This document shows, in pieces, positions 3,816-41,526 of a stretch of 41,561 nt of DNA (position 1 is its first letter; every line of letters starts with the position of its first letter). The notes beneath the pieces are model-generated. The model made no database searches. It was not told the origin of the DNA and was given only the letters and a program-made list of their open reading frames with translations. The DNA lies in the NCBI GenBank assembly GCA_002084825.1, contig NBMF01000025.1:1-41561 (forward strand), written 5' to 3'. The position numbers were made by a program, and so were the translations under genes. This DNA comes from Fusobacteriia bacterium 4572_74 (GTDB lineage Bacteria > Fusobacteriota > Fusobacteriia > Fusobacteriales > Fusobacteriaceae).

Positions 3816-3904
3816 TAAAGGTAATAAATTATTATAAAATAACTCTTAAAAGACAAAAATTTAGATAGAGGCCGTAAATATTAAAAAGTAATTTTAGGTT
3901 AGTC

Positions 3905-4048
3905 ATGACAAGCATTGATCCTAGAATGAAAGGTAAATTTGCCGAAACACAGAGAAAAAAGTCAAACTTTTTTGTGTTGGGGTTATTGATAGTGTTATTG
4001 ATAGCTCTTTTTTATTATTTATTAATAAATAAATTAGGAGGGAATTGA
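3905..4048 (+). CDS. Small single-pass membrane protein, 47 aa
   Basis: ATG 3905 to TGA 4046-4048: MTSIDPRMKGKFAETQRKKSNFFVLGLLIVLLIALFYYLLINKLGGN; charged N-terminus then one hydrophobic helix; ends 2 nt before the nhaC ATG. Weak RBS. Confidence 0.5.
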   Translation: MTSIDPRMKGKFAETQRKKSNFFVLGLLIVLLIALFYYLLINKLGGN

Positions 4049-4050
4049 TT

Positions 4051-5460
4051 ATGGGGAGTAAGATGAAAAAGAAAACGACACTGATATACGCACTGATACC
4101 GTTGTTATTTTTAATAGGGAGTTTATTTTATGCAATTCAGATTGCACACATTGATGTACATATACCTATCTTAGTATCAGCATTTTTTGCAGCAGGAGTG
4201 GCTATATTTGGGTTAAATTATACATGGGGTGAGATAGAAGAAGGAGTAATTGAAACTATTAAGATGGCTTTAGGTGCTATTATAATTCTTATGATAATCG
4301 GAATGGTAGTAGGAACTTGGATTCAATCTGGTGTAGTACCAACTATGATCTTTTATGGATTGAAGATATTGTCACCGGGGATATTTTTACCGGCAACGCT
4401 TATTATATGTGCTATTGTATCTGTGGCTACTGGTTCATCATGGACAACAGCGGCAACAGTTGGTATTGCACTTATTGGTGTAGGAGAGGGACTTGGAATA
4501 CCTAGAAATGTAGTAGCAGGTGCTATTATTTCTGGAGCATATATGGGGGATAAATTATCGCCATTATCAGATACAACAAATTTAGCACCAGCAATGGCAG
4601 GGACAGATTTATTTACTCATATTAAACATATGATGTATACAACAATACCTAGTTTTATTATATCTATAATTTTGTTTGGATTTCTTGGAGCTAAATATAC
4701 AGGAGCAGCATTAAATACAGAGATGATCGACAAAATATTAAACAGTTTAAATGGAAACTTTAATATTAATCTTTTATTATTATTGGTACCGGTTATTGTA
4801 ATTGGAGCAGTAATAATGAAAGTTCCAGCAATACCTGGATTATTTGGAGGAGCTGTCTTAGGTGGAATAGCTGCAATAATCTTTCAAGGAGCTTCATTAG
4901 GTTCGGTATTTTCAACATTGCATTATGGTTACGCAGGTGAGTCGGGATTGGCTATGGTAGATAACCTATTAAATAGAGGAGGACTTGACTCTATGATGTG
5001 GACTGTTTCATTAATTATTTGTGCCATGATCTTAGGTGGAATAATGGAAAAAACACAAATGTTAGAAATCTTAGCAATGAAAATTCTATCTGTGGCACAT
5101 ACCACTGGAAACTTAATATTAGTAACTATATTAACACCAATTTTTGTAAATGCAGTAGCTGGAGATCAATATCTTGCTATAGTTGTGCCTGGAAGAATGT
5201 TTAAAGGTGCCTATGAACAAAAAGGATTACATCCTAAAAACCTTTCTAGATCATTGGAGGATGCCGGAACTCTTACATCACCATTGATTCCTTGGAATAC
5301 ATGTGGGGCATATATGATTGCTACCCTAGGGCTGGCACCGTGGACTTATGTTCCGTATTGTTTCTTGAACTTAATTAATCCAATTATAGCTATAATTTAT
5401 GGATATACAGGATTTACAATTGAAAAAATAGATAAAGAAAAAGTAAAAGCAGAAGCGTAG
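4051..5460 (+). CDS. nhaC: NhaC-family Na+/H+ antiporter
   Basis: Multiple TM helices; ATGSSWTTAATVGIA, GAYMGDKLSPLSDTTNLAPA typical of NhaC; ATG 4051 after TTAGGAGGG. Confidence 0.85.
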   Translation: MGSKMKKKTTLIYALIPLLFLIGSLFYAIQIAHIDVHIPILVSAFFAAGVAIFGLNYTWGEIEEGVIETIKMALGAIIILMIIGMVVGTWIQSGVVPTMIFYGLKILSPGIFLPATLIICAIVSVATGSSWTTAATVGIALIGVGEGLGIPRNVVAGAIISGAYMGDKLSPLSDTTNLAPAMAGTDLFTHIKHMMYTTIPSFIISIILFGFLGAKYTGAALNTEMIDKILNSLNGNFNINLLLLLVPVIVIGAVIMKVPAIPGLFGGAVLGGIAAIIFQGASLGSVFSTLHYGYAGESGLAMVDNLLNRGGLDSMMWTVSLIICAMILGGIMEKTQMLEILAMKILSVAHTTGNLILVTILTPIFVNAVAGDQYLAIVVPGRMFKGAYEQKGLHPKNLSRSLEDAGTLTSPLIPWNTCGAYMIATLGLAPWTYVPYCFLNLINPIIAIIYGYTGFTIEKIDKEKVKAEA

Positions 5461-11420: not shown

Positions 11421-11499
11421 ATATGGAATAATAATTTTTTTACGGGTGTTCTTTCTTGATTCCGTTATTTGGACAAGCAAAGAATGAATGGAGGAACTT

Positions 11500-13372
11500 A
11501 TGTACAAAGACTTATACAATAAAATAGAAAATTTAGATATAAAGGGTGTAGGAGAAAAAACTATAGCTGCCTTAAAAAATCTGGGAATAAATACCATCAT
11601 GGATTTGATATATTTCTTCCCACGAACCTATGAGGACAGATCCAATATAAAGAAAATAGGAGAGATCAGGTCGGAAGAATATGTGGTGGTAATCGGAAGG
11701 ATTATTTCGGTGGAAAACAGGAAAACTAAAACCCGTAAAATCATGACTGTAGCTCGTATTACCGACGGGACTGGGATGCTGGATCTGGTATGGTTTCAGA
11801 TGCCGTATCTAAAGAAAAGTCTTCAGGGAGGAGAGGAATATGTATTTATCGGGAATGTAAAGAGGGGATATAACTTTCAGATTGTTGGTCCGGAATACAG
11901 GAAATACAGCGGTAAATTAAGTGAGGAGATAAAACCTATCTACAGCAGCAATAGAAATTTATCTCAAAATGGATTACGTAAAATAATAAGAGATACAATA
12001 AAAAAGTATATTTCATATATAGAGGAAAATATTCCCAAAGAAATATTAGAAAAATATAAATTGATGGGGAGAAAAGAAGCAATTCTAAAAATTCATCTGC
12101 CAAAAAACTTGAAGGAGATAGAGGAAGCTGAAAATAGGATGGCTGTAGAGGAACTTCTAATTTTAGAATTAGGAATTCTGTCTAAAAGGTTTCAATTGGA
12201 TGCCAATAACAACTCTAAATATAAGCTGAATGATGACAGACATATGGTGAAAAAATATCTAAACAGCCTGGAGTTTGATTTAACCAAGGCACAAAAAAAA
12301 GTGATTACAGAGATATATAAGGATTTATCAGGGGGTAAAATCGTAAATAGATTGATTCAGGGGGATGTAGGATCAGGGAAAACAATTGTAGCTGTTTTAA
12401 TGCTTTTATATCTTGTAGAAAATTCTTATCAAGGGGTAATTATGGCTCCTACAGAGATTTTAGCTATACAACATTATTTATCAGTGGTAGATGACTTGGC
12501 TGAATTAGGCATAAGAGTAGAAATCCTTACAGGGAGTATAAAAGGTAAGAAACGAGAAAAATTATTATCTGAAATAAAAGAGGGAGTTGTTGATATAGTA
12601 GTAGGAACTCATGCTCTTATTGAGGATCATGTAATTTTTCATAAATTGGGACTTATTGTGGTAGATGAACAACATAGATTTGGAGTAGAACAACGGAAAA
12701 AACTAAGAGATAAAGGAGAGATATCTAATCTACTAGTTATGAGTGCGACACCTATCCCAAGATCTCTGGCTCTTAGTATCTATGGGGATTTGGATGTATC
12801 TATTATAGATGAATTACCTCCAGGGAGGATCCCTATAAAAACCAAGTGGATAGAATCTGATAACGATTTAGAAAAAGCCTATGATTTTATTAGAAAACAA
12901 TTAGTTAATGGAAGGCAGGGATATATTGTAGCTCCTCTTATTGAAGAAAGTGAAAAAATGGCTGCAACTTCTGCTACAGAACTTTATAAAGAGATGGTAG
13001 GTAGATTTTCTGAATTTGAGATAGGACTTCTTCATGGTAAGATGAAAAATAAAGAAAAAGAAGAGATTATGAATAAATTTAAAAAAAATAAGATACAGAT
13101 ACTCGTATCTACTACAGTAATAGAGGTAGGAGTGGAATGGTTTTTTAATAGCCGAGGAAGATCTAAAACTTCGTAAGCCAGGAGAAATATTCGGAACCCG
13201 TCAAAGTGGGATGTCGGATCTAAAATTTGTGGATATAGTCTACGACGTAAAAACTATAAAATTGGTCAGAGATATCTCCATAGAGTATCTAAAAAAGTAT
13301 GATGGAGAGATACAAAAAAATACATTGAGGATGGATATCGTAGAAAAATTTAAAGTGGATGAAATTAAATAG
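11500..13372 (+). pseudogene. recG: ATP-dependent DNA helicase RecG with internal out-of-frame deletion
   Basis: Walker A QGDVGSGKT, DEQHRFGVEQR, SATPIPRSLAL, VSTTVIEVGVE; after ~13137 the sequence resumes one frame over at GFLIAEEDLKLRKPGEIFGTRQSGMSD...KVDEIK*. Confidence 0.88.
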
Positions 13373-36785: not shown

Positions 36786-37193
36786 CTATTCATCTAAAAA
36801 TTTTAAATATTCAGTTTTTTCTATTTCAACGAGGGAGAGATTAGGGCTCATACCTTTAATGAATTTCATAAGCGGGTCATCGGAGCTTATATTATTGAAA
36901 GTAATTTTTTTACAGACTTTTTCAAGGATGATACATCTACTTTTTACTCCCATACCCTGTATTTTTTTATAACTGCTTTCTATTACAGTAGTAGCACACA
37001 CAAGGTCTATATTTTCACAGTCAAAACAGATCACAATATCTCCTACTTTGATGTTTTTAAAGTCTTTTCTATACTCTCTAGACGATATCTCTATCCTATC
37101 ACCTACTTCATCAAAAATATCTGACCATACAGTCAAATTTTTATCAGTGGTCCTACATTCCTTGTCCCTTCTCAATAGATAATATTTTTTCAC
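36786..37193 (-). CDS. Small protein, possibly EVE/PUA-like fold
   Basis: KVGDIVICFDCENIDLVCATTVIESSYK...; weak resemblance only. Confidence 0.35.
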   Translation of the reverse strand: MKKYYLLRRDKECRTTDKNLTVWSDIFDEVGDRIEISSREYRKDFKNIKVGDIVICFDCENIDLVCATTVIESSYKKIQGMGVKSRCIILEKVCKKITFNNISSDDPLMKFIKGMSPNLSLVEIEKTEYLKFLDE

Positions 37194-37341
37194 CTAAAAT
37201 CCTCCCTTATAAAGAATATTTTAACCTACATTATATTCTACTCTTTTTTTTATAAAAATTAAGAATTTATTTAAAAAATTTTTGGAGAAGGAATGATTTT
37301 AAATTTTTGGTATACTTTATAAGTAGGAGGTGAATAGTAGG

Positions 37342-38373
37342 ATGGAAACTCAAATTATGATTAGTGGAAAAAAATTATTCTATAAAAACGGTTATTTTAA
37401 GACTAAGGTCTCTCATATAACAGATGATATAGGAATATCTACGGGGAATTTCTATACTTACTATAGCTCCAAAGAGGTACTTTTAGATAGGATTTTGAGA
37501 GAACAGCTAAATATTTTAGATAGGGAATTTAAGATAGCTATAGATGTATATGGGGAATTATCAGATATATTAAATAATTTTTTTATTACAAATATTAATT
37601 TTGTAATAAATATGATCCCATTGTATATTTTAAAAGAGGAAGTTGAAGAAAATATCAATAAATTTAAAGATACAACTGTTAAAATTATAAGGGAATATGA
37701 TGAAATTTTATCCCATTATATCAAGAAAATTCTTTTGAAAGAATCTATAAATTTAAAACAATTAGACATAATAGTCTCACTCATAAATATCCAGGTTAAA
37801 ACATACATGACTTACCTTATAAAAAGGGAAAACATAGAATATCTAAATATTAAAAGCATAGGGGAAAAAGCTGATATATTAACATCATTGTCACTTTCAA
37901 TCTGTACTATATTTAATTTGAATTTTAAAAATATTGATAAGTATGATAGTTTGACAGGAGTATATTCAGAAGAATATTTCATTAATTTTTTAAAAGAGGT
38001 GACATTGACAAATGAGATGAATGACACGGTTTTTTTTGTGGTATATCCACCGAGATTAAAAATAAATAAAAAAGATTTTTTTTCAGATTCAATATTGAAG
38101 GGAATATCGGATATTTTGAAAAAATATACAAAATCAGATGATATTATAGGCCTTGTAAATGAAATATATTTCATTATATATATGAAAAAGATAGGCGGAA
38201 TGGAAGTGGGAAAATCTATTGAAAAAAGACTGAAAAAAATGTTTGAAGGGATGGAAAAAAAATATTCTAATAAAGGGACTTGTACCATACAGATTGAATT
38301 TATTTCTATAAAAGAATCGATGTCTTATGTCACAATTAAAACAAAGATAGATGAAATCATATACCGAAAATAA
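37342..38373 (+). CDS. TetR-type N-terminal regulator with degenerate GGDEF-like C-terminus
   Basis: N-term GKKLFYKNGYFKTKVSHITDDIGISTGNFYTYYSSKEVLLDRIL (TetR HTH); C-term YDSLTGVYSEEYFINFLKEV...LKGISDILKKYTKSDDIIGLVNEIYFIIYM aligns by eye with DxLTGLxNRRYF...SDxxGRLGGDEFxxxL, with GGDEF replaced. Confidence 0.7.
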   Translation: METQIMISGKKLFYKNGYFKTKVSHITDDIGISTGNFYTYYSSKEVLLDRILREQLNILDREFKIAIDVYGELSDILNNFFITNINFVINMIPLYILKEEVEENINKFKDTTVKIIREYDEILSHYIKKILLKESINLKQLDIIVSLINIQVKTYMTYLIKRENIEYLNIKSIGEKADILTSLSLSICTIFNLNFKNIDKYDSLTGVYSEEYFINFLKEVTLTNEMNDTVFFVVYPPRLKINKKDFFSDSILKGISDILKKYTKSDDIIGLVNEIYFIIYMKKIGGMEVGKSIEKRLKKMFEGMEKKYSNKGTCTIQIEFISIKESMSYVTIKTKIDEIIYRK

Positions 38374-38493: not shown

Positions 38494-41400
38494 GTGAACA
38501 ATAAGATTATTATTAAAGGAGCACGTGAACATAACCTTAAAAATATAAATTTAGAGATACCAAAATATAAATTTGTAGTTATTACAGGAGTGAGTGGCAG
38601 TGGAAAATCCTCCCTTGCCTTTGATACAATATATTCTGAAGGGCAGAGAAGATATGTAGAAAGTTTATCAGCTTATGCCAGGCAATTTATCGGACAGATG
38701 ACAAAACCTGATTTAGATAGTATAGAGGGATTGTCTCCAGCAATTTCAATTGAACAGAAAACAACCAACAAAAATCCAAGATCTATAGTGGGAACAATGA
38801 CTGAAGTATATGACTATATGAGGTTACTCTACGCTCATATTGGGATAGCATACTGTCCAATATGTAATTCTCCAGTAGAAAAACAAAGTGTAGATGAGAT
38901 TGTAGATACTATTATGGGAAAAGGAGAGTTAGGAGATAAACTCCTCCTCCTGTCACCTGTTATAAAAGATAAGAAAGGTACCCACAAAAATCTATTTATC
39001 AATTTAGTAAAAAAAGGATTTGTAAGGGCTAGGATAGATGGTGAGATCCTATATCTAGAAGATGATATAGATTTAGATAAAAATAAAAAACATGATATAG
39101 AGGTTGTTATAGACAGACTTATAATAAAAAAAGAAACTGAATTTTTAACTCGATTGACAGATGGAATAGAGAGTTCTATAGGATTATCAGAAGGCAGAGT
39201 TATAGCCAATATAAATGGTATAGATCATTCTTATAGTGAAAATTTCACCTGTCCCAATCATGAAAATATAGAGATACCTGATATTAACCCCAGATTATTT
39301 TCTTTTAATGCTCCCTATGGGGCTTGTCCAGAGTGTAATGGATTAGGGAAAAAATTAGAGGTTGATGAAAATAAGCTGATCATAGATGAAAAAAAATCCA
39401 TTAATGATGGGGGGCTATATATACCAGGGGCTTCAAGTACCAAGGGATATGTATGGACAATATTTTCTGCCATGGCAAAAGCTTTTAAGATAGATTTAGA
39501 TAAACCATTAAAAAAACTGACAAAAAAAGAAAAAAATATTATATTTTATGGGAGTTCTGGAAAAAAATTTAAAGTTGACTACATTGGACGGGAATTTAAC
39601 TATAATGGGATGAAAACTTTTGAAGGGATAGTGAAAAATCTAGAAAGAAGATACTACGAAACGGGTTCTGAATCTACAAAAGATGAGATAGAAAATAAAT
39701 ATATGATGCGTAGAACCTGTAACAGCTGTCATGGGAAGAGACTCAGAGAGGAAGTGTTGTCCATTACAATTAATAAGATGAATATTATGGATGTGAGTTT
39801 TTTAAGTATAAAGGATTGTTTAGTATTTTTTAATGGGCTTATTCTAAATCCTAAGGAAGAGATTATTTCCAAAGATATATTAAAAGAAATAAAAGAACGT
39901 CTCAACTTCATGATAAATGTAGGTTTAGATTATCTGAGCCTTGCCCGTGAGACAAGAACCCTGTCTGGAGGAGAATCTCAAAGAATTAGGCTAGCTACTC
40001 AGATTGGAAGTGGATTGACAGGGGTACTTTATGTACTCGATGAACCTAGTATAGGTCTACATCAGAGGGACAATGATAAATTATTGAAGACTCTCAATAG
40101 ACTTAAAGAATTAGGTAATACTTTGATAGTTGTAGAACATGATGAGGAAACTATGATGCAGTCGGATTATATTTTTGATTTAGGACCTGGAGCTGGAAGA
40201 TTTGGAGGAGAAATAGTAGCAAAAGGAACTCCTAAACAAATTATGAAATCTAAAAAATCCCTGACTGGAAAATATTTAAAGGGGGAGATTGGTATAGAAG
40301 TTCCACTAAAAAGGCGTAAATCTAAAGAATATTTGGAGATACTAGGAGCTTCTGGAAATAATCTAAAAGATGTAGATGTGAAGATACCACTAGGAATAAT
40401 GACAGCTATTACAGGAGTCAGTGGAAGTGGGAAGTCCACCTTAATCAATCAAACCCTGTACCCCATATTATTCAACAGTTTGAATAAAGGGAAGTTATAT
40501 CCATTGAATTATAAAAAAATAAAGGGTTTAGATTACCTAAATAAAGTTATAGACATAAATCAAAGTCCTATTGGACGAACTCCTAGATCAAATACGGCTA
40601 CTTATACCAAGATGTTTGATGATATTCGTGGAATATTTACTGAAACTCGTGAAGCTAAACTTCGGGGATATCAAAAAGGGAGGTTTTCATTTAATGTTAA
40701 AGGAGGCCGGTGTGAAGCCTGCCAAGGTGCTGGAATCATAAAAATTGAGATGAACTTCTTGCCAGATGTATATGTAGAGTGTGAAGTGTGTAAGGGGAAA
40801 AGGTATAATCGTGAAACTTTGGAGATAGTGTATAAAGGGAAAAATATATCTGAAATTTTGGGCCTCAGTGTAGGAGAGGCTTATGATTTTTTTAATAAAA
40901 TTCCATCTCTAGAAAGAAGATTGAAGGTACTTATAGATGTAGGATTAGATTATATAAAATTAGGGCAGCCTGCTACTACTCTGTCTGGAGGAGAAGCTCA
41001 AAGGATAAAACTAGCAACAGAACTGTCTAAAATGAGTAGAGGGCATACAATATATATATTAGACGAACCTACTACAGGGCTTCATTTTGAAGATATAAGA
41101 AAATTATTGGAAGTTTTGAATAGATTGGTGGATAAAGAAAATAGTGTAATTATAATTGAACATAATCTAGATGTAGTAAAAATAGCGGATTATGTTATAG
41201 ATATTGGTCCTGAAGGAGGAGACGGTGGCGGTGAGATCATAGCCACAGGGACACCTGAGGAAATAATAAACTTTGAAAATTCTTATACTGGAAAATATTT
41301 AAAAAAATTAGCAACTGATACAGGATGTACTGAGGTACAAGTAGCTATATTAACTGAGAGAATCAATCACTTAACTGATCATTTAAGAACTAACAAGAAG

Positions 41401-41526
41401 GATCATCATTCTAGATTAGGATTAATGAAAATGGTTGGTAAAAGAAGAAGATTATTAGACTACATGATCAAGAAAGATTTAGATGGTTACAGAACATTAA
41501 TCTCTAAATTAGGAATCAGAAAGTAA
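38494..41526 (+). CDS. uvrA: UvrA excinuclease subunit fused in frame to N-terminally truncated ribosomal protein S15
   Basis: Residues to ~...[18 protein letters not shown] are UvrA ([36 protein letters not shown]). The rest, [70 protein letters not shown], is S15 without ~20 N-terminal residues. GTG start after AAGGAGG. Confidence 0.92.

Follow-up and report, generated by a model that had tools for sequence, protein, structure and literature searches.

We describe a predicted transcriptional regulator in which a DNA-binding module of the TetR family is followed by a degenerate GGDEF domain. Its gene, here termed tetR-dGGDEF, is found on the forward strand at positions 37342–38373 of the analysed DNA of Fusobacteriia bacterium 4572_74, a stretch of 41,561 nucleotides from contig NBMF01000025.1 to which we refer as the window. 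The two-domain architecture is certain. That the protein is a repressor which employs its catalytically dead GGDEF domain as c-di-GMP receptor, and which would act as a one-component regulator of pili, is a proposal to which we assign about even chances and for which we infer ligand binding, the DNA target and the sign of regulation.

The open reading frame starts with an ATG at 37342 that is preceded by a good Shine-Dalgarno sequence, ends with a stop codon at 38371–38373 and encodes 343 amino acids, matching the boundaries given in an initial interpretation of the window made from its letters (the sequence-only reading). A GTG at 37330, which would give a longer version, falls within the ribosome-binding site. 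The gene is kept in the genus, with orthologues of 79–83% identity in four congeners and a fragment in a fifth. For the region encoding the C-terminal part, we find dN/dS values of about 0.04–0.21, which place it under purifying selection. These values, the full-length reading frames in the four congeners and the presence of two paralogues in Propionigenium maris stand against the view of the GGDEF-like part as a functionless, decaying remnant, as could be proposed from its strong divergence and from a Pfam score slightly below the cut-off. This view is largely refuted by the observed purifying selection and appears very improbable.

In the N-terminal half, Pfam identifies a TetR_N helix-turn-helix (PF00440) at residues 9–50 (37366–37491, forward strand) with a score of 31.9 bits, which exceeds the cut-off of 24, and which confirms the DNA-binding motif recognized in the sequence-only reading. 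It is followed by an all-helical core encompassing residues ~51–191 (37492–37914, forward strand), with helices extending up to residue 190 in AlphaFold predictions. In Foldseek searches, the N-terminal part resembles FasR with a TM-score of 0.82 (by target length), besides matching other TetR regulators. The helix-turn-helix and the core, the latter defined from predicted structure, together assign the protein to the TetR/AcrR family. Congeners also contain a protein of 373 residues with two tandem TetR-like modules (L175:235–1356 and L174:231–1352), which in L174 is encoded upstream of a CoA-transferase-like gene.

The C-terminal domain comprises residues 200–338 (~200–340; 37939–38355, forward strand). 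Its best Pfam match outside the TetR family is GGDEF (PF00990) with 20.5 bits (E 4e-4), slightly below the cut-off of 23.8, and the same two Pfam families were found independently in both distant P. maris homologues, where GGDEF scores 22.7 and 21.9 bits. AlphaFold models based on seven homologues, with a mean pLDDT of 78, display a succession of a helix (210–222), a strand (229–235), a helix (249–262), a hairpin (268–272/276–282), a helix (287–309), a strand (317–323) and a final helix (329–340). When this part was modelled alone, GGDEF or GGDEF-EAL proteins accounted for all 50 of the Foldseek matches listed, including WspR, PleD, GcbC and DgcR, with TM-scores of up to 0.75 by query length, and a sequence profile searched against the PDB retrieved chains of cyclases and GGDEF proteins as top matches (E 2.4e-8 and 2.2e-6 for the leading two). 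The domain thus combines the fold with detectable sequence homology to the GGDEF superfamily, with a single-sequence Pfam score slightly under the cut-off. The GGDEF-like C-terminus proposed in the sequence-only reading is borne out by Pfam, AlphaFold, Foldseek and the PDB profile, the predicted structure being a GGDEF fold and not the all-helical ligand domain that would have contradicted it.

Despite this relationship, the domain is, as judged from its sequence, almost certainly a dead cyclase. In an alignment with 31 GGDEF domains from related genomes and with DgcR, the catalytic motif is replaced by NEIYF at residues 273–277 (38158–38172, forward strand) and by CQDKF and GYSTF in the two P. 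maris proteins. The replacement of the signature had been recognized before; its assignment as VNEIY is off register by one residue, and NEIYF fits better because its terminal phenylalanine aligns with the phenylalanine of GGDEF in every homologue. The metal-binding aspartate, equivalent to Asp 327 of PleD, is missing in all homologues, and the TetR-linked domains retain the DxLT start but lack the equivalent of Asn 335 and the C-terminal region containing Lys 442 and Arg 446. The combination of a GG(D/E)EF motif and a metal-coordinating aspartate that characterizes active diguanylate cyclases is therefore absent, and with the loss of these residues no cyclase activity would be expected, as had been predicted.

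A different picture emerges for the I-site, which in PleD involves Arg 359, Asp 362 and Arg 390 (PMC7288161). The equivalent of the RxxD motif is KSDD at residues 264–267 (38131–38142, forward strand), and the equivalent of Arg 390 is Arg 296 (38227–38229, forward strand), a register that is confirmed by the alignment with DgcR, where Arg 296 corresponds to the arginine of ILDRVR. Asp 267 and Arg 296 are invariant in all seven homologues and are among only 13 of about 143 C-terminal positions without variation in these proteins, which represent three lineages. At the position of Arg 359, both P. maris proteins carry an arginine (RDED and RKND) and thus contain the complete RxxD motif and the second arginine, and in the genus of the window a lysine (Lys 264) results in KxxD combined with the arginine. 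A fourth PleD residue, Arg 313, is not evidently kept. The loss of the A-site together with the retention of most of the I-site fits a dead cyclase retained as a c-di-GMP receptor, which from these residues is the likely assignment. The likely ligand would thus be c-di-GMP, a more specific reading than the nucleotide sensing or dimerization considered in the sequence-only reading. The lysine in place of the first arginine counts against this assignment in the genus of the window. It would be compatible with a GGDEF-like domain that solely serves in dimerization or as a structural module, with the ligand binding in an ordinary TetR pocket, as would the known dimerization of GGDEF domains and the complete appearance of the TetR core in the AlphaFold and Foldseek results. 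The selective retention of Asp 267 and Arg 296 between lineages that share only about 25% identity is unexpected for a purely structural domain, and we thus regard this explanation as unlikely.

The architecture is narrowly distributed. Among 98 genomes of the phylum Fusobacteriota, full-length matches are confined to the genus of the window and to two proteins of P. maris DSM 9537 (G011). Across 1,097 genomes from other phyla (those of four sampled genomes), a weak search that scored the best 5–20 candidates per genome and, without positive control, is of limited sensitivity yielded no full-length homologue at thresholds of E<1e-16 to 1e-18, and none was found in a search of plasmids. A description of a TetR-GGDEF protein was not found in the open-access literature, consistent with the earlier impression that this is not a common TetR architecture, and reviews of c-di-GMP receptors treat the TetR-type LtmA and the GGDEF-type PopA, PelD and YdaK separately (PMC12564702, PMC10519070).

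TetR genes often control their divergent neighbour. In the window, tetR-dGGDEF is divergent from a small open reading frame of 135 amino acids (36786–37193, reverse strand) and from the nucleoside catabolism genes deoB, deoD and cdd, which adjoin the regulator on the opposite strand in the window and in the congeners G002 and G006. This arrangement makes local control of nucleoside catabolism a real alternative and counts against pili as target. According to this alternative, the regulator would act on deoB, deoD, cdd and the small reading frame, and its GGDEF-like domain would respond to a nucleotide with a purine or pyrimidine base, for instance GTP, instead of c-di-GMP. A precedent is provided by CC3396 of Caulobacter, whose degenerate GGDEF domain senses GTP (PMC7288161). 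In TetR-dGGDEF, most of the GTP-binding residues, including the equivalents of Asn 335 and of Lys 442 and Arg 446, are gone while the I-site is kept, and both P. maris copies are located at pilus operons, which renders local control rather unlikely. The small reading frame itself had been labelled as EVE-like. This identity finds no support, as it shows no Pfam family at E-values up to 10 and a PDB profile search returned only a cupin at chance level (E 0.31), and the frame is missing beside the gene in the congeners G006 and G007. Upstream of tetR-dGGDEF, an AT-rich block of about 50 bases (37235–37290, no strand assigned) shows conservation between the window and four congeners, including those that lack the adjacent frame. 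It contains a dyad that does not clearly exceed chance, and is a candidate for a promoter or operator.

Elsewhere in the window, a lysine riboswitch (3858–4017) precedes a gene resembling NhaC-type antiporters (4045–5460), and a RecG-like reading frame (11488–13176) ends abruptly after VIEVGV and continues with an unrelated tail, pointing to a frameshift or to a join made in assembly at around 13140. At the contig end, the UvrA sequence runs on in frame into that of ribosomal protein S15 (41300–41526), a fusion that looks like an assembly deletion, since uvrA and rpsO are separate in congeners, at a distance of about 130 bases.

The link to pili is provided by P. maris. Its two paralogues, which are about 31% identical and mutually convergent, are each divergent from a chaperone-usher pilus operon containing a PapD-like chaperone, DUF4402-like subunits and an usher. 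In Pfam, one of the operons yields an Usher match (PF00577, 27.2 bits) and the second a PapD_N match (PF00345, 24.2 bits), each exceeding its cut-off, and since the two ushers are homologous to each other, both loci classify as chaperone-usher operons. By gene position, pili are thus a well-supported target in P. maris. The support is weaker in the genus of the window. An orthologue of the second P. maris operon, in which the genes are arranged identically and the usher is 43% identical, is found in the genome of the window and in three congeners, where it is not linked to the regulator gene. The near-complete genomes that contain the gene (G002, G006, G007 and G011) all harbour this usher subtype, and the near-complete congener G005 lacks both, a co-occurrence that is weakened by the relatedness of the genomes.

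Searches for regulatory elements did not reveal an operator above chance in the AT-rich upstream regions. The best words shared by the region upstream of the gene and the pilus operon of the genus were no better than those of shuffled controls, and a 33-bp dyad consisting only of A and T upstream of the gene in the window was equalled in 9 of 200 shuffles, with no significant counterpart in the remaining four orthologues. Upstream of the pilus operon, the strongest dyad was rejected as operator, as it is followed by a T-run and located just past the preceding ArsR-like gene, of which it looks like the terminator. A candidate operator is a conserved inverted repeat, ATTCACTT...AAGTGAAT, whose halves are separated by about 30–35 bases and which precedes the TetR-associated pilus operon (L207:13322–13374 and orthologues).

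Signalling by c-di-GMP is in use in these bacteria, as the near-complete genomes searched encode about 30 GGDEF domains apiece and c-di-GMP-I riboswitches reach a number of 11 per genome. Such riboswitches are located upstream of 20 of 43 related usher loci of the family, compared to about 0.2 expected by chance (counted over the 6.5 kb that precede a locus on its own strand, with a chance of about 0.5% per locus). These include G007:C3:497129–497214 (L210), G005:C84:2867–2942 (L211) and 18 other loci, with the riboswitch in G007 being placed 89 nt ahead of the chaperone reading frame. Conversely, a c-di-GMP riboswitch was found neither at any of six TetR-associated usher loci nor at tetR-dGGDEF itself, as would be expected if another sensor takes over at these loci, although the contrast between 20/43 and 0/6 is not significant (Fisher p=0.069), with the loci being non-independent and four of the six being orthologues. 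This distribution suggests that c-di-GMP may control these pili via RNA in some operons and via the TetR-dGGDEF protein in others.

In the proposed c-di-GMP-dependent mechanism, the ligand would bind at the I-site formed by RxxD or KxxD together with Arg 296, where it probably locks the GGDEF pair of a TetR dimer. The locked pair would shift the spacing between the two DNA-binding heads, by which binding to the operator would either be released or strengthened, so that the expression of pili would follow the c-di-GMP level. In the genus of the window, the regulator would have to act on the pilus operon in trans.

The protein can be compared with several known systems. With PleD and DgcR it shares the fold and the I-site positions Asp 362 and Arg 390, but it lacks the A-site residues and carries a TetR part where the receiver domain stands. 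For PopA, a dead A-site and a retained RxxD I-site are described (PMC12564702, PMC10519070), and together with PelD and YdaK it belongs to the GGDEF-type receptors, none of which is described in these reviews as fused to a DNA-binding domain. LtmA and HpoR of Mycobacterium smegmatis are reported to respond to c-di-GMP, the former containing a TetR-type helix-turn-helix, whereas a GGDEF domain is given for neither in the reviews (PMC12564702, PMC10519070). DarR, which Foldseek returned for the N-terminal part, combines a TetR fold with a cyclic dinucleotide ligand but binds c-di-AMP and has no GGDEF domain. Finally, those chaperone-usher loci of the same bacterial family that are linked to c-di-GMP-I riboswitches share the pilus output and presumably the signal, with the sensor being RNA instead of protein.

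We thus tentatively propose, with somewhat less than even confidence, that TetR-dGGDEF stands for a new class of one-component transcription factors that respond to c-di-GMP. In these proteins, a TetR repressor would be joined directly to a dead GGDEF domain whose I-site still works, and in some Fusobacteriaceae they would substitute for c-di-GMP riboswitches as regulators of chaperone-usher pili. If true, coupling a dead GGDEF receptor directly to TetR would constitute a simple and portable device to convert the level of c-di-GMP into transcription, and the family would offer a possible natural case of a single link between signal and output, from c-di-GMP to pili, that is built with either an RNA or a protein sensor. 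As pili are surface fibres, TetR-dGGDEF may be an undescribed link between c-di-GMP and attachment.
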